Positions 44,065 to 58,774 of a DNA stretch of 64,000 bases are shown piece after piece; positions within the stretch are counted from its first letter, which is position 1; every line of letters starts with the position of its first letter. Both the position numbers and the translations under genes were made by a program. The notes below the pieces were generated by a model, which was not told the DNA's origin, ran no database searches, and saw nothing but the letters and a program-made list of their open reading frames with translations. The stretch comes from Candidatus Zixiibacteriota bacterium (lineage in GTDB: Bacteria > Zixibacteria > MSB-5A5 > GN15 > FEB-12). The DNA is taken from NCBI GenBank assembly GCA_040756055.1, contig JBFLZR010000004.1:310001-374000 (forward strand), read 5' to 3'.

Positions 44065-47000
44065 ATGTTGAAAAAGACTTCTACAATCCTCATTGTTTCG
44101 CTTCTGATGTTCGTGCTTTTGGCGACTTCAGCTTTTGCCGCACAATCCAAGAGCAAAGGCACACTCTCGCCGAGCGCGCGGATTAAAGCTTCTGCCAACG
44201 CCCTGGCGTACTCGTTCACCGATGAAAGGCCGGCCGGCGCCACCGGCGCGCTTCAGCAGGGACGGATCCCGATCGGGGCCGTCGCCTATTCCTCGGCGGC
44301 TATCTCGCCAGGCCGAACGGTCGGCGATACCTGGTACGACCAGCAGCATAACGGCTCGATGGGTCGCATGATCGAAACCGGTCCTCACTCCGGACAGACG
44401 GGCGCAACAACCGTCCACTTCAGCTGGATGTACTCTCCCGATGCTACCATCGAGGAACGTTCATATGCCTATAATGCATACATCAGTGGTACTCATCAGT
44501 ATGCCGGCGCTTATGTGTTGCACTCCTGGGAATACTCCGGATATGTCAATATCGATGTAACCCCGGATAACCGTGGTATCGTCGGTGGCCACACCGATGT
44601 TCACGGCCTCGTGAAATATCAGCCGCAAATGCATTTCGATGATTGCTCAACGTGCGAAGATTTCGCGGCTTTTACACGCCTGCCTGATTCTCTGGCCGTT
44701 TATGGGCAGGAAGGCGGCAATACCGAGGCTACCTGGCCCAAGTTCTTCCTGCAGTTCGGTACCGATACCGTGCTCCATGTCGTGGCCGGCAATGATTACG
44801 GCGCCTATTATATGTCCCTCATGTATTTCCGCTGCGTCGGATACGAAGGACAGGGTATCTGGGATTATCCGCCCTATGTTTTCGACACGGTTCGCGATAT
44901 TGCCTATGATATCACTGCCCAGAGAATGGACGACCGCGTGGGTATCACCTGGATGGCCCACCCTCCATATGAGGAGCCATGGTGCGATACCTGCTCGGGC
45001 AACACTCCGACCGCCTATCTCGACTGGGGAGTCGGCCAGATGGATAACGACGTCTATGTGCAGGTGTCCAACGATCAGGGTGCCAATTGGGAACCCAAAC
45101 AGAACCTGACCAAGGTGCCGATTGGCGAAGCAGCCCTTAAAGGATATTGCGATAACTCTATTTTGCTCGATCAGGAGGGTTATCTGCACGTCATCTGGCA
45201 CGCCCACCCGTGGCCCTCAGATCCTGACCTCACCATGAACTGGGGCGGCGATGGATTCTTCTGGCCTGATAAATCCCGCCTGATGCACTGGTCCGAAAAC
45301 GTACCATACCTCAGAACAATTTGCGATCACACCTATGACCCGAGCGACAGCTGCGGTTCGCCCGGCTGGGCCATGACAGTTGCCAAACCCACTCTGTCTG
45401 AGTGCGACGGCAAACTGTACGCTATCTGGTCGCAGTTCAATGATGTCCCCGGAGGTATCATCGACGACTGTGCCGACTGGCGCTGGGATGACTGGAACAA
45501 CTACTATTGGGGCGGAGCCAACGCCGAAATCTGGGTGTCTGTCTCCGACGACGGCGGACTCACCTGGGATCGTCAGCGTAACCTGACCAACTCTTATACT
45601 CCGTACTGCGATCCCGAGATCGGCGAGGACTGCCAGAGCGATTACTGGGCCTCTATGTCTCGCTGGGGCCGTCAGGTCCAGGCAGGGGAAGACTGGTCTG
45701 CCGCCGATATCGTCGACCCGTCAGGTGGATCATCACCGACCAACTGGTATCTTGACATACAGTATGTCAACGATCTCGAGGCCGGACGAGCCATCAGCAC
45801 CGACGACTACGAAGGCGAATTCACCAACAACCCCATCAAGTGGTTCAGAATGCCTTGCGTGGAGCCGGTCCCCAACCCCATTCCTGTATTTTCTCTGTCT
45901 TCTATCGGCTTCCCGGCATGGGAGAAACCGGGCGTGGAATTCGATACCCTGCTCCTGATCGAAAACGTCGGTAACGCCAACTACAATTATACCGTGTCGT
46001 TCGAGGAAGACAACGGCACCGCCGGCTGGCTGGGCGTATCCGGACTCTCGGGTACATGCCCCTCCGGTTTGGACAATGTCGAAACCGGAGCCATCGTCAT
46101 CAACCAGGGCGGAATTGTCGACTACGCGGTCATTCTTACCGGACGAGTAACCTTCAGCTGTACCGAAATCGAAACACCGACCGTTATCGATATCGAGTTC
46201 CTCGTTGCCGATACTCTCATCTTCCCCGACTACGATACCGTTCATACCAGCTGTATCGCTCTGATCTGCGGCAACAACGGTAACGTTGGCGGCAATGGCT
46301 ATCCCGGCGTCACTATGGACTATATCCGCGACGGTGACTGTGATACCACTGCCCTCAACTATATGTTCGAAGGCTCTCCGCTGATCGGATGGGTCAACGG
46401 CGATGACACTGTAGTGAACTACTACATGTGGGGTGGAAACTGGGCTAACGAAGAGGGTCTGTTGCCTCAGGGCGGCATGATCGCCACCAAGGTGTGCGAC
46501 AACCTCAATGCCGAGGTATTTCATTCCGGTGTCTTCTCCTCTAACGACTCGACCATCGCTATGGAGAAAGTCGTCGTGGCCCCGCTCGATGACTGCCCGT
46601 TCATTATTGAGTACCTGAAGGTATATTCCTACGACGGTCTCGCTCACTCCGGCCTGCTGGTCGGTGAGGCTATCGACTGGGATATTCCCTGGGATTACCG
46701 CGATGATGATACGGCCGGCGACTACTGGGACGTCAACAACTACGGCGGTTTCGACGCCCCGAGAGCTCTCGTTTACCAGCAGGGTTACGAAGCTTCGGGC
46801 GACTGGGATACCCTGTATCCTTTCGACTGCCAGCTCAATAACGAGCGCTATGGCGGTAACGCCTTTGTAGCTTCGTACTTCAACGGCTCGTTCGCGGCCG
46901 GTGGACCCTACAGCGCATTCGTTCAGGAGAACGACTCGTTGCAGGAAACCGACGGCTGGTTTGAAGGTAAGCTCTACTACGAACTCATGGGTACCGGCTT

Positions 47001-47487
47001 CAAGGCTACCGACTCGATCGAAGATCTGCACACGGCAATGTGCTTTGACCCGAGCCTCGACCTCGGCGCGACTGACTATTACGAGGTCGTCACGGTCCTG
47101 GCTACGGTACACCAGGGCACCCTGGCCGACCTGCAGGCCGCAGTCGACGCCGGTAAGACCTGGTATACAAACAATGGCGGCATCGCCATGTTCGCCGATG
47201 TCGATGGCGCCGGCGGTATCGATATGTGCCAGGGCTGCTGCGAACTTGTCGGCGATCTAAACGGCGACGATTACCTGGACCCGCTTGATGTCACCTTCTA
47301 TGTCAACTGGCTATGGAAGGGAGGCCCCGCGCCGAGCTGTTGCGCGGAAGCCGACATCAACGGAGACTGCTTTACCGACCCGCTCGACCTGACTGCAATG
47401 GTCAATTACATCTGGAAAGGCGGTTTGCCGCCGGCCAGTTCCTGTGATATGTCTTGCTGGCTGACATGCACCGGGTCATGCGATTAA
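44065..47487 (+). CDS. Large secreted protein with sialidase-type repeats and C-terminal dockerin-like module
   Basis: Secreted protein of 1140 residues. Signal peptide STILIVSLLMFVLLATSAFA. The N-terminal half carries Asp-box-like turns of sialidase/BNR propellers (SNDQGANWEPKQNLT near residue 335, SDDGGLTWDRQRNLT near 495). A middle Ig-like stretch (about 620-710) leads to a block (about 720-1050) shared with the next gene: CIALICGNNGN, MDYIRDGDCDTTA, PFIIEYLKVYSYDG. The end is a dockerin-like pair of calcium loops, DLNGDDYLDPLD and DINGDCFTDPLD, followed by cysteine-rich residues. It has no type IX sorting domain. Strong promoter and long leader precede it; AAAGGAGG precedes the ATG. Dockerins bind cohesins, but none is visible in this window. 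Confidence 0.9.
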   Translation: MLKKTSTILIVSLLMFVLLATSAFAAQSKSKGTLSPSARIKASANALAYSFTDERPAGATGALQQGRIPIGAVAYSSAAISPGRTVGDTWYDQQHNGSMGRMIETGPHSGQTGATTVHFSWMYSPDATIEERSYAYNAYISGTHQYAGAYVLHSWEYSGYVNIDVTPDNRGIVGGHTDVHGLVKYQPQMHFDDCSTCEDFAAFTRLPDSLAVYGQEGGNTEATWPKFFLQFGTDTVLHVVAGNDYGAYYMSLMYFRCVGYEGQGIWDYPPYVFDTVRDIAYDITAQRMDDRVGITWMAHPPYEEPWCDTCSGNTPTAYLDWGVGQMDNDVYVQVSNDQGANWEPKQNLTKVPIGEAALKGYCDNSILLDQEGYLHVIWHAHPWPSDPDLTMNWGGDGFFWPDKSRLMHWSENVPYLRTICDHTYDPSDSCGSPGWAMTVAKPTLSECDGKLYAIWSQFNDVPGGIIDDCADWRWDDWNNYYWGGANAEIWVSVSDDGGLTWDRQRNLTNSYTPYCDPEIGEDCQSDYWASMSRWGRQVQAGEDWSAADIVDPSGGSSPTNWYLDIQYVNDLEAGRAISTDDYEGEFTNNPIKWFRMPCVEPVPNPIPVFSLSSIGFPAWEKPGVEFDTLLLIENVGNANYNYTVSFEEDNGTAGWLGVSGLSGTCPSGLDNVETGAIVINQGGIVDYAVILTGRVTFSCTEIETPTVIDIEFLVADTLIFPDYDTVHTSCIALICGNNGNVGGNGYPGVTMDYIRDGDCDTTALNYMFEGSPLIGWVNGDDTVVNYYMWGGNWANEEGLLPQGGMIATKVCDNLNAEVFHSGVFSSNDSTIAMEKVVVAPLDDCPFIIEYLKVYSYDGLAHSGLLVGEAIDWDIPWDYRDDDTAGDYWDVNNYGGFDAPRALVYQQGYEASGDWDTLYPFDCQLNNERYGGNAFVASYFNGSFAAGGPYSAFVQENDSLQETDGWFEGKLYYELMGTGFKATDSIEDLHTAMCFDPSLDLGATDYYEVVTVLATVHQGTLADLQAAVDAGKTWYTNNGGIAMFADVDGAGGIDMCQGCCELVGDLNGDDYLDPLDVTFYVNWLWKGGPAPSCCAEADINGDCFTDPLDLTAMVNYIWKGGLPPASSCDMSCWLTCTGSCD

Positions 47488-47673: not shown

Positions 47674-47852
47674 AACATTGCACAAGGGAGTGCTCAGTTT
47701 CTCAAACAGTTTCCGGGAGGGCAGAAATTGCTTACTGCACCTCACGGCCCTTAAGTTCTTCTCGCTTACGTTAGAAAAAACAGCTCGTTTTATGTGTGTC
47801 GCGACAAAACATGGTAGTCTGTCCGCAAAGCAAATCTAAACGGAGGGATCAG

Positions 47853-49277
47853 ATGAAAAGTCCATTCTCAACGTCACTCTCGCTCGCCCTGTCAATTTTC
47901 TTGCTCGCCGGTCTGACGGCACAAGCCGGTATCGACAAGAAAACCGCCTCTAAACAGGTTGGCAAACCCGCGCTCGTCCGAACCAACGCGCAAGCCTACG
48001 CCATCCCGGCCGAACCCGATGTCTTCCTGGTCTGGGACACCGTACAAACCTCCTGCCTCGCCCTGACCTGCAGCCCCCACGGTAACATGGGACGTCAGGG
48101 ATTCGGCAAAGTCAACATGGATTACTACCCCGAGGACTGCGACACAACGGCTCAGGTCTATATGTACGATGGCTCACCGGTAATCGGTCGCATAATCGGT
48201 GACGACACTGTCTTCAACTCGGCTATCTACGACGCCACCTGGTTTGACGAAGTTGGCTTCCTGCCACAGGGCGGTACAAAACAGACAGCATACTGCATCG
48301 CACTAAATGCCGAGGTCTATCACACCGGCACCTTCACAACTACAGACTCAAGTATCGCCCTTAACCGCGTTTACATTGCCCCTCAGAACAACTGTCCATT
48401 TATAATCGAGTATACGCGGGTTTACTCCTTCGACGGCGCGGCCCACGATGACATCATGATCGGCGAAGTTGTCGATTGGGATGTGCCCTGGGATTTCCTC
48501 GAGGATGATGAATATCACTACTGCGTCAACTACGGAGGCCTTGACGTACCCAGAAACCTGGTGTATCAGCAGGGCTACGAAGCCACCTGGGATGACGACG
48601 AACAAGACGCAGACTGCCAGCAAAACGATTACCGTTTCGCGGGTATCGCCTTCGCGCAGTCTTTCTTGAACGGTACCGTCTTTAGCCCCGTTCCCTACAG
48701 CGGCTTCGTAGGTGAGTTCGACTCTCTGACCGGGCTCGATGACCTCGATGCCGGCGGCCTTTTCGCGAACATGATTCAAGCCGGTTTCATGGCAACAGAC
48801 TCGGTCGAGGATCTGATATCAGTCGTGTGCTATCATCCCAATCTCGATATCGGCGCCGATGATTACTTCGAGGTAGTTAATATCCTCGCGACAGTACACG
48901 AGGGATCACTTGCCGATCTTCAGGCAGCGATCGACGCCGGCAAGGCATGGTATCAATCTCACGGCGGTATGGACATATTTACCGACGTCGATGGGAACGG
49001 TCGGATCGATCTCTGCACCGGCACCTGCTGCGAGATCGCAGGCGATCTTAACGGAGATGGCGCCGCCGATCCTCTCGACACCTATATGGTCAACTGGCTC
49101 TGGAAAGGCGGTCCAGGTCCAGTGTGCTGTGCTTCAGCAGATCTCAATTGCGATTGTCACATTGACCCAAATGACGTGGGCTTCTACGTCGGCTGGTTGT
49201 GGAAAGGTTGGCTGAATCCCTGTAACGCCTGCCAGGAGGAATGTTGGGAAGACATCGGCGGTCCTCCCTGCCCGTAA
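47853..49277 (+). CDS. Secreted dockerin-type protein, free-standing copy of the C-terminal part of the preceding protein
   Basis: Secreted protein of 474 residues with signal peptide (FSTSLSLALSIFLLAGLTAQA). From about residue 55 it aligns along its length with the C-terminal part of the 1140-residue protein: CLALTCSPHGNMG, MDYYPEDCDTTA, NNCPFIIEYTRVYSFDG, NLVYQQGYEAT, ILATVHEGSLADLQAAIDAGKAW. It ends in two calcium loops, DLNGDGAADPLD and DLNCDCHIDPND, and a cysteine-rich tail. It thus lacks the propeller part. ATG 47853 has GGAGGG upstream; longer in-frame starts lie in the leader. The shared block is not a family I recognise. The dockerin part may attach it to the cell surface or to a partner. 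Confidence 0.9.
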   Translation: MKSPFSTSLSLALSIFLLAGLTAQAGIDKKTASKQVGKPALVRTNAQAYAIPAEPDVFLVWDTVQTSCLALTCSPHGNMGRQGFGKVNMDYYPEDCDTTAQVYMYDGSPVIGRIIGDDTVFNSAIYDATWFDEVGFLPQGGTKQTAYCIALNAEVYHTGTFTTTDSSIALNRVYIAPQNNCPFIIEYTRVYSFDGAAHDDIMIGEVVDWDVPWDFLEDDEYHYCVNYGGLDVPRNLVYQQGYEATWDDDEQDADCQQNDYRFAGIAFAQSFLNGTVFSPVPYSGFVGEFDSLTGLDDLDAGGLFANMIQAGFMATDSVEDLISVVCYHPNLDIGADDYFEVVNILATVHEGSLADLQAAIDAGKAWYQSHGGMDIFTDVDGNGRIDLCTGTCCEIAGDLNGDGAADPLDTYMVNWLWKGGPGPVCCASADLNCDCHIDPNDVGFYVGWLWKGWLNPCNACQEECWEDIGGPPCP

Positions 49278-49348: not shown

Positions 49349-51955
49349 TCACTGAGTGGAAACTGTCTCGTCGGAATTCACCGGCACCAGAAGGAAATTG
49401 ACCCCCTCTATCATCGTGCCCCCCTCGACCGGTTTTATCTCGAACTCAATCTGCGCCGGCTGGGAAACATAACCAAACTGCTTGAGCTGCTCGGGATCAA
49501 TGTACGCTTTGTAAGAACCGGGAATAAGCCCAAGATAATAGAAATCGCCGCTGGTAAACGATGTCAACTCGATCAGCGTCTCTTTGGAAAGATTCATCAG
49601 AATAATTTTCGTGCCGCCCACACCTCTCAGCGCCGCGCCCACATGCCTGTCAACCCGTCCCGATATTTCACTGGTAGTAACAATCGGAACCTTGATCGCT
49701 GTAACCTCATTCGGATTGACCTTGACCTTATAATTGTCATAGCTGGGCTTCAAAAGCGGGTTATCCAGGCTGTACTGGTCAATCTGCACGGTGTACTCTT
49801 CGTAGGGACGGAGACCATCATAATAGTATTGCCTGTCCGCTCCCCTGATACTCACATGTCCGCCGGCGATTCTCGCCCTGAGACCCGACAGATATTCCTC
49901 GCCGTCATCCATCACCCCATTGTAATTTACGTCATGGAACGGACGGACCACCGCCGACCCGGTGCCAACGGCGTTCCTTCGATCGAACTGAACGCCGTGC
50001 GTCTCCTTGTTGTAGCGGATGGAACCCCGCTGCACCTGGTTCATTGTCGTGCGCTTCGAAGTGTGCATCACGCGCGACGTAAAGTCCGCGAAAGGCGTCA
50101 GCAGATTGAAGGTGGCCATAATAGTATTGCTCTTGGTGAGCGCGTTGTGCTCCATCGAAAGCGTTATCTGGCTCGTTCTGAATATCCTCTTCGCGAGATG
50201 GACGCCATATTTCGACGGCTTGTTCTGCACGTGGTCATAGTCTATCTGGAACTGCGGGCTTAAAAATCTCAAGAGCCTCGATGACAGCATGAGCTGGCTG
50301 GACATGCTCTCAACCGTCTTGTTCGAATACGCCGTGCTCTTATACTTACCCATATATGTAAGATGGACCGGGAATACCGAAGCGTTGAATCCGAAGTTCA
50401 TGTTCATCGACCTCAGCGTAGGATACTCATCAGCGGATATGTTATAACGCAGACCGATATAGTTGCCACCCAGCCGGATCGGCATCGACACCGAAAAATT
50501 TATTTTCGAGAGCTGGTCGAGCGGATTGCGAATGGCATTTTCATAGTATTTCGTGTATCCGGCCGCGACATTAATCGACGATGGCCGGCTGAAGCTCAGA
50601 CTCGCCTTCGACTCATAATTGAAAGCGTGCGCTCCGTTCACTGTCATGCTGCCGAACAATTGATAGGTCGCGTCGGCCGCCACCACCGACTTCTCGCCAT
50701 CGTCCGCCCCTACCGGCAAATCATAGCTGAGACCGAACGTCAAACCGCTCAGAACACCATAGTAAGCATTCGCTTGGGCATATGTTCTCTTCTGCTGATT
50801 GAACTGAAGAGACCCACCGGCCAGGTTATACTCAAACTCCCCCTTGGGAAGCAGCGTGTACGGAACCCGAATCACCTGTTGATTGGTTCGCATCTCGCCG
50901 CTGGGGCCGAACATCTTAATTTCAATGTTCGAAGCGCCGTAATACACATCCGCGTTAAAATCATAGAATCCATCGAAACCGGTGAAAACATAATCAGTCA
51001 ACTTGTTGTCTACCCACAGTTCAACCTCCCAGCCTTCTCCGATATAATCTCTCAGATGGATAGTCTGAAAATATTCCCGCCGCTGCTGTGGCTTGTTGGT
51101 AATCATGGCGCCATCGAGACCTCGCCCCAGCGCGCCGCCGGCGTTGACCTTGCCAACTGTGGCCTGGCTGAGATACTTGTTATCGGACAGGAAATAGTGC
51201 CAGCCGTAGGTGAACTGATCCGCGTCAAACGGCTCTTCGTTGCTGCCGCCGGTTGTCATCTCAAAATCCCCGCCCAGGAGAATCCCGCCGGTGGTCAGGC
51301 TGTAATAATGATTGTTTCTTCCGCCAATCGGGTTAGCCGAAATCGACCAGTCAACCGCCGCGCCGCTCAGGTAGCGTCGCTCATGCCCCAGATCAACCAC
51401 ATCCTTCAGCGACGCCATCCGCTGGCTGAGCTTCTCCCTCGCAATCTTGCGCTTCAGTTTCTGGTAAGCCGGAAAATCCTCGTCCAGCGGAACATACACG
51501 CGCAGCATCGTGAAATCGAAACTCATACGCAGGTTGAACAGGTTGGCCAACAACTCCACCCGCACATACAGATCATCTCCACCGACATAGTAATCCGAGG
51601 CCAGGTAAGGATACTCCTTCCCCAGCGCCTTAATCCGGAAATTGGCAAGATCGAACTCATAATGCTGATCCTTGGAAATGAAAAAGCCCTGAAACCTCTT
51701 CTTCTCCAGATCGGCTTCTATATTAATGTCGAGGAGGCTGAAGACCTTGACCAGCGGAAGGTACACGGTGTGACCGTCGTACTGCACGAAAAGATCCTGC
51801 TGAACCAGCTTGGGGACCTCGAAACTGATTACGATCTCTTCGAAATTTCTGCTCTGACTGGCGTTTATCTGGGCCGACACTGACGCGGCGGTCAGAATTA
51901 CACCTAACAGAACCCCGCAAGGAATATATCGGCATGTTCTACGAAGCATATCCAT
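49349..51955 (-). CDS. Usher-like outer-membrane protein of a fimbrial-type locus
   Basis: Outer-membrane protein of 868 residues with signal peptide (CGVLLGVILTAASVSA). After an N-terminal periplasmic part (about 30-180) the sequence is dominated by alternating beta-strands (about 200-650; SLTTGGILLGGDFEMTTGG, LRYNISADEYPTLRSM), consistent with a large barrel. Then comes DVNYNGVMDDGEEYLSG near residue 675 and two small beta-sandwich modules (about 745-860, VTTSEISGRVDRHVG). This size and order fit fimbrial ushers of the alternate type, though similarity to PapC is not obvious by eye. The call depends strongly on the neighbours: it is the last gene after a PapD-like chaperone and six pilin-like exported proteins. 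It would secrete and assemble the subunits. Confidence 0.7.
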   Translation of the reverse strand: MDMLRRTCRYIPCGVLLGVILTAASVSAQINASQSRNFEEIVISFEVPKLVQQDLFVQYDGHTVYLPLVKVFSLLDINIEADLEKKRFQGFFISKDQHYEFDLANFRIKALGKEYPYLASDYYVGGDDLYVRVELLANLFNLRMSFDFTMLRVYVPLDEDFPAYQKLKRKIAREKLSQRMASLKDVVDLGHERRYLSGAAVDWSISANPIGGRNNHYYSLTTGGILLGGDFEMTTGGSNEEPFDADQFTYGWHYFLSDNKYLSQATVGKVNAGGALGRGLDGAMITNKPQQRREYFQTIHLRDYIGEGWEVELWVDNKLTDYVFTGFDGFYDFNADVYYGASNIEIKMFGPSGEMRTNQQVIRVPYTLLPKGEFEYNLAGGSLQFNQQKRTYAQANAYYGVLSGLTFGLSYDLPVGADDGEKSVVAADATYQLFGSMTVNGAHAFNYESKASLSFSRPSSINVAAGYTKYYENAIRNPLDQLSKINFSVSMPIRLGGNYIGLRYNISADEYPTLRSMNMNFGFNASVFPVHLTYMGKYKSTAYSNKTVESMSSQLMLSSRLLRFLSPQFQIDYDHVQNKPSKYGVHLAKRIFRTSQITLSMEHNALTKSNTIMATFNLLTPFADFTSRVMHTSKRTTMNQVQRGSIRYNKETHGVQFDRRNAVGTGSAVVRPFHDVNYNGVMDDGEEYLSGLRARIAGGHVSIRGADRQYYYDGLRPYEEYTVQIDQYSLDNPLLKPSYDNYKVKVNPNEVTAIKVPIVTTSEISGRVDRHVGAALRGVGGTKIILMNLSKETLIELTSFTSGDFYYLGLIPGSYKAYIDPEQLKQFGYVSQPAQIEFEIKPVEGGTMIEGVNFLLVPVNSDETVSTQ

Positions 51956-51994
51956 ATGCTCACCTGATAAGCCGGCGAATGTTCCCGTACCCGC

Positions 51995-52870
51995 TTATTC
52001 CTCCACGTTCATGGTGAAAAGAATATCGTTGCCGAATATCATCTCTTCCTGCGGAAGGTCCTTGCGGCCCTTATTTGTTACATTAACCTCAACGGTAAAC
52101 GGCCGCTTGAAATCCCCTGCCACAATGGGAAGTTCCACGCGCCGGCGCAGGTCGTGATAGACCGCCAGATGAATCTCGCTCTTACTGATTTCCTTGCCGT
52201 CGGCATCCAGCAAACGGCAGCTCAGAAGTCCCACGTATGAGACATTACCGCGATTCACCAGGTCAACAACCGCGTACACATTGGAGTCCGTGACCTGAGT
52301 TTCGGAATTTGTCAACTCAACATTGGCGACACAATCCCCCTTGCGATACTTGAGCATAATCGCTGTGCGCATGATCATATTCAGCTTGGTGGTAATCTTG
52401 TTGTCGTCTTCGGGAGTCGGTATCGTGGTTGTTCCCTCTTGCGCCTGAACCACGACCCTCGCCCAGTATTCGCCGTCAGCCAGGTCTTTCGGCGGATCCG
52501 CCACGAATCTCACAATCTGAGAACCGTTGGCGGGAATGATCAACTTGCGCGGAAACGCCTTCACCCATCCCATCGCCGACCGGGGATCGGTCACGGCCGA
52601 GTCCTGAAGATCAATACTGACATTACCGAGACTGTCGGATTCGGGAATGCCGAAGGCGAAGTCAATCGTGACTTCCTTGGGAGCGTTGGTCGGATTCTGA
52701 ACAGTGAGCCGCCCCGTCCGGCCTTTTTCGGAGATAAACACTACCGGAGGAGCTACCAGAACACCCGCCAGAATATCTGCCAGCGGCAGAAGGACCAGCA
52801 TTAATGCACAAAATATCCCCTGCCGAAATACCCTTTTTAACGACAGGGGATTCAATTTCAAATCAGTCAT
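51995..52870 (-). CDS. PapD-like periplasmic pilus chaperone
   Basis: Exported protein of 291 residues. A long signal region (RQGIFCALMLVLLPLADILAG) is followed by an immunoglobulin-like domain with features of pilus chaperones: VVFISEKGRTGRLTVQNPTN (strand A1/B region), SAMGWVKAFPRKLIIPANGSQ and IVRFVADPPKDLADGEYWARV (strand G1 and following, where subunits are gripped). A second beta-domain (about 160-285) contains ANVELTNSETQ, NRGNVSYVGLLSCRLLDADG and FTVEVNVTNKGRKDLP. The G1-like motif 'P-x-x-S-Q-I-V-R' is the best evidence. It lies between the pilin-like genes and the usher-like gene, with gaps of 120 and 39 bases. The role inferred is donor-strand stabilisation of the DUF4402-like subunits. 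Confidence 0.75.
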   Translation of the reverse strand: MTDLKLNPLSLKRVFRQGIFCALMLVLLPLADILAGVLVAPPVVFISEKGRTGRLTVQNPTNAPKEVTIDFAFGIPESDSLGNVSIDLQDSAVTDPRSAMGWVKAFPRKLIIPANGSQIVRFVADPPKDLADGEYWARVVVQAQEGTTTIPTPEDDNKITTKLNMIMRTAIMLKYRKGDCVANVELTNSETQVTDSNVYAVVDLVNRGNVSYVGLLSCRLLDADGKEISKSEIHLAVYHDLRRRVELPIVAGDFKRPFTVEVNVTNKGRKDLPQEEMIFGNDILFTMNVEE

Positions 52871-52990
52871 CTTGTCTACATCCTATGCTTGTGTTAAAGT
52901 CGCCGTGAGAACCGCAAATCCATCGCGGCCTCATCCCATCCAAGGGAAACTTAACCGGAGCGACTTTAAATCGTCAATTTTTAACAGTCA

Positions 52991-53545
52991 TCAGTTACCG
53001 GTATAGGCAGCCGTCAGAACGATATCGCCCGAATAAGCGCCCACCGCCTGGTCAACCGCCGGATAAACGGTACCGACCAGGTACACATGCAAACCATTGT
53101 CAGCGCCGAGCGTGGTGGCGGTCAGGTTGTATGGATCCTCTACCGTCTCCGAACCACTCTTGGTGGCGGCATCACCGGCCAGGAACGGATCGATTTCGCA
53201 ATCGGTGGCCCCGAACGAAATGATCATACGGTCGGTGTTAGTGGAATTCCAAAGGTACTCGGGAAGCTGAAAGTAAAGAGCAACTTCACTACCGCCGGCA
53301 CCGGCGACCTGGAAGTCGGCGGCTTCAGCCACGACATCGATGTCGGCTGAAGTCGGGACGCCCTGAAGCACGCTACCGAAGTTAAGGTCTTGAACCGAAG
53401 TTACCGCCAGAACGGCCAATACCGTAGCATTGGCGCCGCCTGTGGCCACTTCCTGAGCCTGAGTGTTCGCAGCCGCGAACATCAGAACAAACAGCGCAAC
53501 CGCGATAAGCGGTGAAGCGAATTTCTTGTGTGATTTGAATAGCAT
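52991..53545 (-). CDS. DUF4402-like exported subunit, major pilin candidate A
   Basis: Exported beta-rich protein of 184 residues with signal peptide (SPLIAVALFVLMFAAANTQAQ). It fits the DUF4402 pattern: an N-terminal strand ATVLAVLAVTSVQDLNFGSV, a LPEYLWNSTNTDRMIISF strand pair, a single cysteine in ATDCEIDPF, and a last strand SGDIVLTAAYTGN. The C-terminal alternation of hydrophobic residues with a near-terminal tyrosine resembles that of chaperone-usher pilins. It is very similar to the next gene upstream (53570-54124), the result of a recent duplication. AGGAGA precedes the ATG. Located immediately upstream of the chaperone gene; inferred structural subunit of a surface fibre. Confidence 0.82.
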   Translation of the reverse strand: MLFKSHKKFASPLIAVALFVLMFAAANTQAQEVATGGANATVLAVLAVTSVQDLNFGSVLQGVPTSADIDVVAEAADFQVAGAGGSEVALYFQLPEYLWNSTNTDRMIISFGATDCEIDPFLAGDAATKSGSETVEDPYNLTATTLGADNGLHVYLVGTVYPAVDQAVGAYSGDIVLTAAYTGN

Positions 53546-53569
53546 TGTTTATCTCCTGGTTACGTTATT

Positions 53570-54124
53570 CTAATTTCCTGTGTAAGCCGCAGTCAGCACG
53601 ATATCAGCCGTGTAGGAACCCACCGCCTGATCCACCGCCGGAAATACCGAACCCGCCAGATAGACGTGAAGGATATTATCGGTCGCGTGGAGATTGGTGG
53701 CCGGAAGAGCATAAGGATCGGCCACGACCGGCGCTACTTTCGTAGCAGCGGTTCCAATGTTGGCGTCGATCTCACAGTCCGTCGATGAAAACGAAATGAT
53801 CATCCGGTCCGTGTTCGTTGAATTCCACAAATACTCCGGCAACTGAAGATACAGCGCGACCTCGGCGCCACCCGAACCGGTGACACTGAAATCCGCGGCC
53901 TCAGCTACCACGTCAATATCCGCAGAACTCGGGACACCCTGGAGTACGTTACCGAAGTTCAGATCCTGAACCGAAGTAACGGCAAGTACAGCCTGGACGG
54001 TGGCAGTGGCCTGACCGACCGCAACTTCCTGTGCCGGCGCCGTCAGAGGAATCAGAAGAACTACCACAACCAGACCCACGATGACAATCTTGGAATACTC
54101 CAGGCATCGTCTTAGTCTACTCAT
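53570..54124 (-). CDS. DUF4402-like exported subunit, major pilin candidate B
   Basis: Near-duplicate of the preceding subunit, 184 residues, with signal peptide (IVIVGLVVVVLLIPLTAPAQ). Shared stretches include AVLAVTSVQDLNFGNVLQGV, SADIDVVAEAADF, LQLPEYLWNSTNTDRMIISF and ADIVLTAAYTGN. Differences concentrate around residues 110-145. The single cysteine lies in STDCEIDAN. I choose ATG 54124 with GGGAG seven bases before, over ATG 54148. It is the first gene after a terminator-like hairpin at 54400-54426, so together with subunit A, the chaperone and the usher it may form its own transcript. Confidence 0.82.
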   Translation of the reverse strand: MSRLRRCLEYSKIVIVGLVVVVLLIPLTAPAQEVAVGQATATVQAVLAVTSVQDLNFGNVLQGVPSSADIDVVAEAADFSVTGSGGAEVALYLQLPEYLWNSTNTDRMIISFSSTDCEIDANIGTAATKVAPVVADPYALPATNLHATDNILHVYLAGSVFPAVDQAVGSYTADIVLTAAYTGN

Positions 54125-54454
54125 GTTTAACTCCCATCCGTTGTTCATTATTTTGACATATCCGTTTTTCGAGTCCTTTTGTATGTTTAATCGTCATACA
54201 GTTCACTTTCTTAACAACCCTTTAGAAAAATTTTTGCGATTTGCAATGCTCCCTTTCAGCTTTTCGCATTCCGCCATAGACCACTTACAACATCCCTGTT
54301 TCAAATCAAAAACATGCTGAAAAAAATGAAAGGGAAGACAAGCCGCCATGGCAACGCAAAGCGCTGTTAGACAATATGATATGTCGCTTTTTTGGGGGGG
54401 AACAAAAAAGGAGAGCTGAGCTCTCCTGCGTATTCGTCGCGAATGACCGGCCGG
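54125..54454 (-). other. Intergenic region inside the fimbrial-type locus
   Basis: A 330-base stretch with a terminator-like hairpin for the upstream subunit gene at 54400-54426 and then A/T-rich sequence, including AAAAATTTTT around 54230. A promoter for the pilin-chaperone-usher genes is expected here, but I cannot pick one with confidence. Confidence 0.45.
54400..54426 (-). terminator. Internal terminator of the fimbrial-type locus
   Basis: On the minus strand GGAGAGC and GCTCTCC (54410-54416 and 54420-54426) form a 7-bp stem with a 3-base loop, followed by TTTTTTGTT. It lies 29 bases after the stop of the subunit gene at 54455. Confidence 0.8.
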
Positions 54455-55021
54455 CTATGTTCCGGTGTAGGCCACGGTTACGGTAATGTCGGCGCTGTAA
54501 GGCCCCGAAGTTTGGTCAACAGAAGGAGTTACGCGTCCGCCAAGAAAGATGGCCGTTATGTTTGGACCGGCCGAACCAACCACCAGGCTGGTCGGCAAGT
54601 TGTAAGGATTAACATCCGGCCAGCCATCTCCGAACGCCGATGGATCAATATTGCCGGTCGAATCTACCGAGCAATCAGTCGCCCCAAACCCGACAACCAT
54701 CCGGTCGTCACCGCTGGCTGTCGCAAGGTATTCCGGCAAAGAAATATAAACCGATATCCCGGCCCCACCCAGACCGGAAATCATGAAAATACCTGAATTG
54801 AGAGCATCGTTATTGCCGACTGTCTTGGCTACCCCCTGCAGGACATCTCCGAAATCAAGGTCCTGCACGGAAACGACCGACAAACCCGTGAGAACGTTGG
54901 CTATTGCCAGCCCGTGGGCTACTTCCTGACCGACTACCGGATTCGACAGGGTCAGCACGATTATACCGACGATAACAAAAATACTCCCGAGTGAGCGTGC
55001 GCGATGTTTATAGGTATTCAT
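54455..55021 (-). CDS. DUF4402-like exported subunit C
   Basis: Exported protein of 188 residues with signal peptide (SLGSIFVIVGIIVLTLSNPVVG). It has the family features: AIANVLTGLSVVSVQDLDFGDV at the mature N-terminus (shown here in two halves by its VSVQDLDFG core), ISVYISLPEYLATASGDDRMV, the single cysteine in GATDCSVDST, and the C-terminal strand ADITVTVAYTGT. I choose ATG 55021 because GCAGGAG precedes it; an upstream in-frame ATG at 55078 lacks a site. It diverges from subunits A and B, so it may be a minor or adaptor subunit. It is followed by the internal terminator. Confidence 0.8.
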   Translation of the reverse strand: MNTYKHRARSLGSIFVIVGIIVLTLSNPVVGQEVAHGLAIANVLTGLSVVSVQDLDFGDVLQGVAKTVGNNDALNSGIFMISGLGGAGISVYISLPEYLATASGDDRMVVGFGATDCSVDSTGNIDPSAFGDGWPDVNPYNLPTSLVVGSAGPNITAIFLGGRVTPSVDQTSGPYSADITVTVAYTGT

Positions 55022-55190
55022 GAACGACTCCTGCTTATAGAGAATATTTTCCCGCGTCCCGCCGCTATGACGGCGCATATTCTATAGATAAAATCGCCAT
55101 CGTGCACGCATGTAATTACCTCTGCGGTAATAATACCGGCGCCACCGCCAAAGGCTGTATCAAATCTAAGCAAACTATGGGGAGAATACC

Positions 55191-55685
55191 CTAATTTCCG
55201 GTGTATTGCACCGTGATGACAATCGAAGCGTTATAGCTTCCCTGTTGCTGACGGATACCTGGAATAACGGTCCCGCCGAGCCATATCGTCAGCCCGTTCG
55301 AACCGAGCCGATAAGTCAGCGTGTGCCAGGGATCGAGATCATCGAACTCGGGATCAGATTGATCAGGGCTGGCAGTCGTATCAATAGCGCAATCCGTCTC
55401 GTTGAAAATCATCTGCATATTGAAACCACCGGCGTTCATGTATGTCGGCAGCGTGAAGTTTATCGAAATTTCGTCACCGGCAGTGCCGGTGATCTGAAAC
55501 TCACAGGCCGATCCGGGTGTGGCTTTGTCGATAGCCTTGGGTATGCCGGGGAACACCGCTCCGAACGCGAGATCGTTGTTGATAGTCACATTCTGCGCGA
55601 ACGAGCTCCCTCCCGCGAAAAGAAGTATCGCAAGTGCCGCGAAGCTTAAACCCCTCGCAATAACGAAACCGAATGATGATCTCAT
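55191..55685 (-). CDS. DUF4402-like exported subunit D
   Basis: Exported protein of 164 residues with signal peptide (GLSFAALAILLFAGGSSFAQ). It is the shortest of the five DUF4402-like proteins and starts the mature part with NVTINNDLAFGAVFPGIPKA, a compact version of the conserved N-terminal strand. The single cysteine block is FNETDCAIDTT, preceded by ISINFTLPTYMN, plus an extra cysteine early in the mature part (SACEFQITG). The last strand is NASIVITVQYTGN. No strong ribosome site precedes ATG 55685. The missing N-terminal extension could mean a terminal position in a fibre, since such a subunit could not donate a strand; this is inference. Confidence 0.78.
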   Translation of the reverse strand: MRSSFGFVIARGLSFAALAILLFAGGSSFAQNVTINNDLAFGAVFPGIPKAIDKATPGSACEFQITGTAGDEISINFTLPTYMNAGGFNMQMIFNETDCAIDTTASPDQSDPEFDDLDPWHTLTYRLGSNGLTIWLGGTVIPGIRQQQGSYNASIVITVQYTGN

Positions 55686-55755
55686 GGGAAAAAACTATGA
55701 GAAGATGACTCCCACGTCAACTTTTAACTGAAGACCCGAACCGCTCGGAAGATAC

Positions 55756-56235
55756 TCAATTTTCAGTATAAATGAGAGTGATCGTACAACTGCCGCAGTC
55801 CGCCGATAGACTGCCTATGACTTCATTCAGATCAAGAAGGGCATTTCCCGGTTGATAGGGATCGGCCGAAACGGATGCGAACCGAAGGTGCCGCACTGCC
55901 GGACCCGAAAATCGTCCCTGCGTATCATCATCCGAGGACACTTCAATCAGCACCGACCCGACAGACGGAGAACGCAAAAACAGATTATCGAGCCGCAGGG
56001 ATTCTTCGCTGCTTTCGCCCCATGATGCCATCGTCATACCGATTTGCGTTTGCGGACTCATTGTCAAAAGAGTGTCTTCCGGCGACACAATCCCGATCGC
56101 CGGCACGACTGTAGCCGTGGCCGAAATCGAAGCCGATGCCCGACCGATGAACATCTCCGCCACCCCGGGCGCGAATGAAATCGCGAAAATCACCGCTGTT
56201 GATAAAATGATTCTAAGCAGCCGACCAAGTCCCAT
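55756..56235 (-). CDS. Divergent exported subunit E of the fimbrial-type locus
   Basis: Exported protein of 159 residues with signal peptide (LLRIILSTAVIFAISFAPGVA). It does not show the DUF4402 'dLnFG' motif, but it has similar size, a mature N-terminus with alternating residues (ASASISATATVVPAIGIVSP) and the same kind of last strand, CTITLIYTEN. Two cysteines near the end (DCGSC) are unique in the set. Position between two DUF4402-like genes on the same strand supports membership of the same assembly; it could be a tip, adaptor or regulatory subunit. It is separated from the first gene of the locus by 215 bases and from subunit D by 70. No family recognised. Confidence 0.7.
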   Translation of the reverse strand: MGLGRLLRIILSTAVIFAISFAPGVAEMFIGRASASISATATVVPAIGIVSPEDTLLTMSPQTQIGMTMASWGESSEESLRLDNLFLRSPSVGSVLIEVSSDDDTQGRFSGPAVRHLRFASVSADPYQPGNALLDLNEVIGSLSADCGSCTITLIYTEN

Positions 56236-56450
56236 GTCAGTACCTGATTAACAAATGGTGTGTACACCATCAAGATACCGAAAAAACCGAATTTGTCAAT
56301 GAGATTGTCGACAGCCAAAATTAAAGTGGACCCGTATCATCCACAGAAATCAGAGCATACGGCTGCAATGGAAAACACGGGCAGAACAATGCCCTCTCCC
56401 CCGGATCAAACGATGACAATAGCGGATGAAGCCCGCCCTATCCGCTATCG

Positions 56451-56981
56451 TCAACTTCCCGTATAAGCAACCGTCAACACAACATCGCTGGCGTAGTCGC
56501 CGCCGGTCTGGGACACTGTCGGAAGCACCGTTCCGCCAATCCAGATCATCAGCGTCGCGCCCGCTCCGATATTGAGCGTAGCCGGTCCGTTGGGATCCAA
56601 TACACCGGCCGGGGATGTCTGCCCGGCTCCGGTGCCGTCGTCGTACGAAGCATCGGTGTTGTTGAATATGACCCGCAGGTAAGCCAGTGAATCCGACGTT
56701 ACGAGCGAGTCCGGAAGCTCAAAGTCGACCGAAACCTCGGCATTGCTCGTACCGGTCACGGTCCACTCACCGGCAAAGCCCACCGTCGCCTTATTAACCG
56801 ACTTATTCACTCCGGGCGTCACCGTTCCGAACTGAAGGTTGTTGGTACCGACGACATTCAGAGTTGACACTACTGTTGCTAGAGCCTGGATGGTTCCCCG
56901 CTCCTGCGCTTGCGACAGGGCTGTCAACAAAAGCAGACAAACAAGTACTCCAAACAGGGCCCGGCCTATTGTTCTGGCCAA
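56451..56981 (-). CDS. DUF4402-like exported subunit F, first gene of the locus
   Basis: Exported protein of 176 residues with signal peptide (ALFGVLVCLLLLTALSQAQ). Mature N-terminus GTIQALATVVSTLNVVGTNN and then LQFGTVTPGVNKSV follow the DUF4402 pattern; later SVDFELPDSLVTSD, NNTDASYDDG and the final strand SDVVLTVAYTGS. The cysteine found in the other copies at TDC is alanine here (TDA), so this subunit has no cysteine in the mature part. The start is a TTG with AAGGAGG upstream. It is the first gene of the minus-strand locus; the upstream region at 56982-57292 should hold its promoter. Confidence 0.8.
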   Translation of the reverse strand: MARTIGRALFGVLVCLLLLTALSQAQERGTIQALATVVSTLNVVGTNNLQFGTVTPGVNKSVNKATVGFAGEWTVTGTSNAEVSVDFELPDSLVTSDSLAYLRVIFNNTDASYDDGTGAGQTSPAGVLDPNGPATLNIGAGATLMIWIGGTVLPTVSQTGGDYASDVVLTVAYTGS

Positions 56982-57292: not shown

Positions 57293-58774
57293 ATGTTTAG
57301 GCATATGGGATATGCTCCAAAAATTCTGGTGGCACTGGCAATCAGTGCATCGCCGGTCCTCTGCCAGGACCTGCTGTGGTACAAAAACTACGGCGGGCCA
57401 TACAACGAATTCGGCAACTCCTGCCAGCAGGACGCCAACGGCGACTTCTATTTTCTTGGCACCACCTACTCCGACGCTACCAACGGCTTCGATATCTACC
57501 TTGTAAAAACCGATTCGCTCGGAAATCGACTGTTCGCCAGAACATATGGCGGCGCTCTCTCCGAATACGGTTACGACTTGCGCATGACGACCGATGGCGG
57601 TTTCGTCATTGTCGGAAGCACCAAATCGTATGGGGCAGGTGAAAAGGATGTTTATCTGCTCAAAATCAATGCCGACGGTGACCTTCAATGGAGCCGCACC
57701 TACGGCGGTGTCGCCGATGACGAGGGTCGATCGGTCAGACAGACTACCGATGACGGCTTCATCATCGCCGGCGGCACCTTCTCATTCGGCGCCGGCTATC
57801 AGGATGTCTACCTCATCAAAACAGATCAGTACGGCAATCTCGTCTGGCAGGAAACGTTCGGGGGCGCGGGCGGAGAATCCGCCGCGGCTGTACGCCAAAC
57901 GCCCGATGGTGGATATATCGCGGTGGGTTCCACCGGGTCCTTCGGCGATGGCTACAGCAGCATCTATGCGGTTCGCGTCAGTCAGGCCGGCGACTCCATG
58001 TGGGCCGCCACCTATGGGGGACTGAAAGCCGACTACGGTTACTCGGTGGAAACAGCGATGGATGGCGGCATAATAATCGCGGGCGCTACCGCCTCGTTCG
58101 GAGCGGGCTCCTCCGATGCTTACCTGATAAAAACCGATCCGAGCGGCTATGTTGAATGGCAACGAACCTATGGCGGCGCCGATGATGATCGCGCCTATTC
58201 CGTGAAGGAGACACCCGCCGGTGACTTTATACTGGCAGGAAGCACCCTTTCGTTCAGCTCCACCTTTAACGTCTATCTGGTCAAAACCAATCCCGTTGGC
58301 GAGGCAATCTGGTCCCGAAATTACGGAGGCGTGGAATCCGACTACTGCGAAATGATCCTCCGCGACAAAGATAACAACTACATTCTGGTCGGACGCTCCT
58401 ACTCCTACACCTCCGGCGGATCCGACCTCTATGTGCTAAAAATACTTGGCGACCCCGCTACCGATGTCTTCGAACAGCTCCCCGGAGAGCTTCCCGCCAT
58501 CGCCGAGCTGGCCCAGAACTATCCGAATCCGTTTAACCTGTCAACGGCTATCGAGTTCTCGCTCAATTCACGAAGCCCGGTAACGCTCTCCATATACAAT
58601 GTCCTTGGGCAGAGAGTGAAACAATGGTCGGAGCCATCGCTGGCCGCCGGCATTTACCGATACGAGTGGGACGGCCAATCCGAGTCCGGCAACACCGTGG
58701 CATCAGGCGTTTATTTCTATCACCTCGAGGCCGGCGTGTTCAGCGAGTCCAGAAAAATGATTTTACTGAAATAA
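57293..58774 (+). CDS. Secreted repeat propeller with type IX sorting domain
   Basis: Secreted protein of 493 residues with signal peptide ([14 protein letters not shown]). It contains about seven repeats of roughly 50 residues with the pattern '[27 protein letters not shown]', for example [34 protein letters not shown] and [10 protein letters not shown]. This makes a beta-propeller. The end is the sorting domain [12 protein letters not shown] to RKMILLK, so the protein should be exported by type IX secretion. It is divergent from the fimbrial-type locus and might share regulation with it. ATG 57293 has AAGGACG upstream; ATG 57305 is an alternative. No enzymatic residues recognised. Confidence 0.88.

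Follow-up and report, generated by a model that had tools for sequence, protein, structure and literature searches.

The window analysed here, a stretch of 64,000 nucleotides from the metagenome-assembled genome of an uncultured Candidatus Zixiibacteriota bacterium, holds at 49349-56981 a block of eight minus-strand open reading frames that we read, with a probability of about 0.9, as a complete, divergent and non-classical chaperone-usher pilus system. The block encodes six small exported proteins, a PapD-like chaperone and an 868-residue barrel, each frame opening with a signal-peptide-like stretch, and the system is chaperone-usher-like on every testable feature except the match to a curated usher profile. 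An earlier note on this DNA had described eight exported minus-strand genes, ordered as subunits, chaperone and usher, in a type IX-secreting bacterium. The genes, their strand and their order were borne out, with the addition of an extension-less subunit third in line that the note had missed. The secretion type is supported as well: SprA_N is found in the genome itself (E 2e-20) and in 10 of 10 relatives, and the neighbouring beta-propeller (DUF5122) protein, encoded at 57293-58774 on the plus strand and divergently from the operon head, ends in a type IX sorting tail (Por_Secre_tail).

Read 5' to 3' on the minus strand, the operon begins with a DUF4402-like pilin with donor extension (56451-56981, TTG start behind AGGAGG) and continues with a divergent small subunit (55756-56235), a DUF4402-like subunit without the N-terminal extension (55191-55685) and another pilin with donor extension (54455-55078), whose true start is probably an ATG near 55021. 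A 306-nt gap is followed by two more pilins with donor extension (53570-54148 and 52991-53545), which are 66% identical and probably the major subunits, and then by the chaperone (51995-52870, 291 residues) and usher (49349-51955) genes. An intrinsic-terminator-like hairpin lies on the minus strand at 54409-54427, 27 nt behind the 54455-55078 gene, where the gap starts. The gap of about 300 nt (54150-54455) thus stands ahead of the two similar subunit genes, and long gaps are seen again in other loci; a conserved terminator hairpin as its regulatory feature was dropped, because a hairpin was present in 3 of 14 long gaps. The promoter scan stayed at chance level, with 9 found and 7.3 expected. 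A hairpin with a T-run separates the usher gene from a convergent gene of dockerin type. Two related secreted proteins are encoded convergently downstream of the usher (44065-47487 and 47796-49277, plus strand), the latter with a dockerin-like repeat pair at its C-terminus, and homologues also flank the operon in locus L021.

Direct sequence routes from the barrel protein to known ushers failed, and its identity was settled by fold comparison. The Pfam search of the 868-residue protein gave a weak SdrD_B match only, and sequence searches of NCBIfam and the PDB (phmmer and profile) gave no match. The earlier note had proposed a search against usher families; here Pfam Usher (PF00577) matched in none of 61 relatives, although it does match in E. 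coli, and once, at E 0.07, among 21 members of the usher family. Aligned with hhalign, the plug-to-barrel stretch IRVPYTLLP..FEYNLAGG falls on FTVPYSSVP..TRYSITAG of FimD, a match that is weak alone, and EcpC gave a probability of 4%, which is no meaningful match. The AlphaFold model, built from 21 own and related sequences (pLDDT 85), shows an N-terminal domain, a barrel and two C-terminal sandwich domains. By DSSP count the barrel has six strands (196-286), a plug-like block (about 305-365) and eighteen more strands (374-649), 24 in total; in FimD the plug is likewise positioned after strand 6. When the model was compared with the PDB using Foldseek, FimD/PapC structures made up the 18 best matches (E 2e-28 to 4e-12), nearly full length at 12-15% identity, the first non-usher fold standing at E 1e-9 against 2e-28 for the best usher. 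Judged by its modelled fold, the 868-residue barrel is an usher, as the earlier note had supposed, and no TonB receptor comes near it. Pfam reads the two C-terminal sandwich domains as SdrD_B and CarboxypepD_reg, matches that recur, always C-terminally, in 21 of 21 and 19 of 21 family members, respectively. We rejected them as signs of a surface adhesin or a regulatory receptor, because they cover those two domains only. High divergence is the reason why standard annotation overlooked this usher.

By its sequence, the product of 51995-52870 is a PapD-like two-domain chaperone of non-classical type. PapD_N matches 15 of 21 family members (best E 3e-6), and its cut-off is exceeded in distant members (loci L121 and L100); the chaperone named in the earlier note is therefore PapD-like, but not of the classical type, since the column of the classical Lys112 anchor holds a lysine in 0 of 37 members. 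In Zixiibacteriota the stretch around Arg8 has the sequence P-T/P-V. Non-classical chaperones carry an invariant arginine in strand F of domain 1, Arg89 in CsuC and EcpB (PMC4654587). The arginine of GEYR in the proteobacterial and Bacteroidota chaperones aligns with it; those of Zixiibacteriota have GEYWxR, with an arginine two residues on, and a weak alignment with EcpB covers strand F1 including this anchoring arginine. The presumed donor strand, TKLNMIMRTAIMLKY, has alternating hydrophobic residues.

For five of the six small proteins PF14352 (DUF4402) is the only family found, as had been proposed for five DUF4402-like subunits, with scores of 17-25.0 bits just under the curated cut-off of 25.2 bits (E 3e-5 for 55191-55685 to 9e-3, with 0.0085 for 52991-53545); the divergent subunit 55756-56235 gave no DUF4402 match. 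In the wider family, PF14352 matches 62 of 64 operon subunit homologues in the order, at E up to 1 and with a best E of 8e-20, and its curated cut-off is exceeded in 24 of 132 phylum genomes. A PDB profile search with the subunits found nothing. The model of 52991-53545 (pLDDT 91) has as nearest solved folds CfaB (best), Csu (second), FimA, the PapG pilin domain and Caf1, a modest match (E about 1e-3, TM 0.37-0.47) that is distant but consistent with a pilin-like fold for the DUF4402-like subunits. Pilin features are seen at both ends. The C-terminus reads G-x-Y-x-x-D-I-x-L-T-V-A-Y-T-G-N or a near variant, an alternating strand that ends near an aromatic residue, and in most subunits about 23 residues (QDVAxGxATATVxxxLxV) separate the core motif LxFG from the likely signal cut, a stretch expected to be the donor strand. 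Measured from a heuristic cut site, with a few outliers checked by eye, this extension has exactly 23 residues in 45 subunits and 8 in 15, and about 23-27 residues in 52991-53545. The divergent subunit has a donor-type N-terminus (SASISATATV) and an alternating C-terminal strand.

The third gene, 55191-55685, belongs to the short class, with 8 residues between the signal cut and the core motif. An extension-less subunit occurs in 18 of 18 loci with at least three subunits, in one copy each except for two in L037; it stands directly after the divergent subunit wherever that subunit is present, and a counterpart of the divergent subunit occupies the second slot of most loci. Having no strand to donate, such a subunit could only be the tip, and the pattern is the predicted signature of a tip or initiator. 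Archaic pili carry a two-domain adhesin at their tip (PMC10104325).

The operon's gene content is not confined to this genome. The usher family is present in 60 of 98 relatives, and in 33 of 60 good genomes, and about 20 loci retain the order subunit-chaperone-usher, which marks the operon as conserved throughout the order and the block as more than a chance array. Among the nearest named relatives the usher is 65-66% identical. A genome-wide scan returned 63 usher loci, mostly from Zixiibacteriota and also from Saprospirales, Bacteroidales, Ignavibacteriota, Vibrio splendidus and others, with chaperone and subunit adjoining the usher in most of them; distant subunit-chaperone-usher loci occur in Bacteroidota, Ignavibacteriota and Proteobacteria. 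The set is also present in plasmid records from Polaromonas (JS666 and E5S), Sphingopyxis, Novosphingobium and Pseudoalteromonas; in Polaromonas sp. JS666 the proteins are WP_011486150 (DUF4402 subunit), WP_011486147 (chaperone) and WP_157046053 (usher). In these records RefSeq mostly gives the neighbouring products as DUF4402 and as 'molecular chaperone' or 'fimbria/pilus periplasmic chaperone', and labels the ushers 'carboxypeptidase regulatory-like' (those of Polaromonas and Sphingopyxis included), 'SdrD B-like' or hypothetical.

A quick tree of the ushers places the main Zixiibacteriota proteins together (support 100) and unites them with those of Bacteroidota and Ignavibacteriota in one group (100), apart from the proteobacterial ushers. 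One Zixiibacteriota genome has a second DUF4402-chaperone-usher locus, of proteobacterial type (L038, G037:C9:445000-461000), whose usher clusters with those of Proteobacteria in the tree, suggesting that the locus was gained by transfer. Very divergent usher-like proteins adjoining DUF4402 genes were detected by our own usher model in a genome from the class of Vibrio splendidus (L125:4706-7276, E 1e-29) and in a Vibrio splendidus genome (L131:4754-7204, E 4e-12); on their sequences, these are perhaps a further branch. In the Bacteroidota loci L091-L094 and L096-L098 the chaperone-usher genes lie directly 3' of large sensor-kinase/response-regulator-like genes, which suggests dedicated regulation.

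To our knowledge, no function has been assigned to DUF4402 (PF14352) so far, and a search of open-access articles found no paper on this domain and, in the same scope, none that treats chaperone-usher systems of Zixibacteria or Saprospira. To keep the choice of loci independent of the usher, we sampled three classes evenly for DUF4402 (the classes to which the Vibrio splendidus, Saprospirales and Phenylobacterium genomes belong) and scored the surroundings of each match with our own chaperone and usher models, leaving the centre genomes out. At E 0.01 these models matched neither FimD nor EcpC. A chaperone or usher of the family lies beside a DUF4402 gene in 16 of the 17 DUF4402-positive genomes and, counted by cluster, in 16 of 23. 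Seven clusters stand alone: six are in two related genomes with an usher elsewhere, and the remaining one is in a genome where the usher search found none. With matches to the C-terminal domains alone excluded, an usher is present anywhere in 15 of the 17 positive genomes as against 27 of 659 overall (Fisher p 1.8e-21, related genomes being not fully independent). The suggestion that the operon gives DUF4402 a function thus holds elsewhere. That the DUF4402 proteins are pilins, also proposed at the outset, gains from this coupling beyond the operon and from nearest folds that are all chaperone-usher pilins, although the fold match itself stays modest (TM <0.5). Neither of the two outcomes that the earlier note had named as refuting was seen. 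We conclude that DUF4402 is the pilin family of a divergent, non-classical chaperone-usher system.

In the mechanism that we propose, the subunits would be exported by Sec, and the chaperone would lend its strand (TKLNMIMRTAIMLKY) to an incomplete Ig-like DUF4402 pilin while holding the pilin's C-terminal strand. The usher would take up the chaperone-subunit pairs and catalyse strand exchange, in which the N-terminal extension of the next subunit (QDVAxGxATATVxxxL; the QEVATGGANATVLAV strand) would fill the groove of the previous one. The growing fibre would be threaded through the 24-strand barrel, with the extension-less 55191-55685 at the far tip. We infer this subunit order, a surface fibre as product and a role in adhesion.

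Other explanations can be put forward for the barrel, for the product and for the neighbouring propeller. That the barrel belongs to another exporter family, LptD-like, TonB receptor or alginate porin, with the Ig-like proteins as a secreted coat, would fit the missing Pfam Usher match and the appearance of such barrels lower in the fold list. The fold comparison largely refutes a non-usher identity, however, with FimD/PapC as 18 of the 18 best folds down to E 2e-28 along almost the whole protein, and with 24 strands, a plug after strand 6 and an adjoining PapD-like chaperone, this explanation is very improbable. The propeller protein 57293-58774 has a type IX sorting domain, and in 12 of 20 loci from relatives a homologue (E 1e-137 or better) adjoins the operon, likewise divergently, so it could be considered the real adhesin, for which the chaperone-usher genes build an anchor or carrier. 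Yet the operon lacks this neighbour in the nearest genus-mate (L021), as it does outside Zixiibacteriota, and a type IX cargo would reach the surface by itself; we regard this arrangement as improbable, and any role of the propeller protein in the pilus system as putative. The alternative with the greatest weight, if still an unlikely one, is a chaperone-usher-derived system for short or capsule-like polymers, similar to Caf1-type coats or spore-coat U systems, and without an extended pilus. Its subunits are indeed small and nearly uniform, Caf1 is among the near folds, and no two-domain adhesin is encoded, but an ordered fibre that has a defined tip is suggested by the several kinds of subunit and by the constant slot of the extension-less one.

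As a pilus system, the locus shares features with three known types. It is like archaic (sigma) pili, such as Csu of Acinetobacter and CupE of Pseudomonas, in its gene content, its small pilins with N-terminal donor strand and its PapD-like chaperone without the classical anchor pair, and an archaic Csu pilin is the second-best fold match of 52991-53545. Archaic pilins are of spore-coat-U type and their usher is recognised by Pfam Usher; here the pilins are DUF4402 proteins, the usher is invisible to Pfam, and where archaic pili have a two-domain adhesin there is a one-domain subunit without extension. With the alternative (alpha) pili it shares the best fold match of its subunit (CfaB of CFA/I) and the weak strand F1 alignment of EcpB from the E. 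coli common pilus, whereas its subunits are unrelated to theirs by sequence and its usher does not meaningfully match EcpC. From the classical FimD/PapC systems it differs in the low identity of the usher and the missing Lys112 anchor, while the full-length usher fold, the 24 strands and the plug position are alike. The system is probably, with less confidence than we attach to the pilus system itself, a separate and unnamed chaperone-usher branch that combines DUF4402 pilins with a cryptic usher. This branch would be largely vertical in the FCB group (Zixiibacteriota, Bacteroidota and Ignavibacteriota), with low-frequency spread in Proteobacteria, and its fibres would be started by a single-domain extension-less subunit with no two-domain adhesin.

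These results provide a function for a domain of unknown function, DUF4402, and add an usher family whose members are now misnamed 'carboxypeptidase regulatory-like' or 'SdrD B-like'. Archaic pili have been reported from Proteobacteria, Cyanobacteria and Deinococcus-Thermus (PMC4654587). Chaperone-usher pili are here extended beyond this reported range to Zixiibacteriota, Bacteroidota and Ignavibacteriota, so that surveys of adhesion and secretion in these groups are incomplete, and the system can be tested directly in cultured carriers, Polaromonas sp. JS666 among them.
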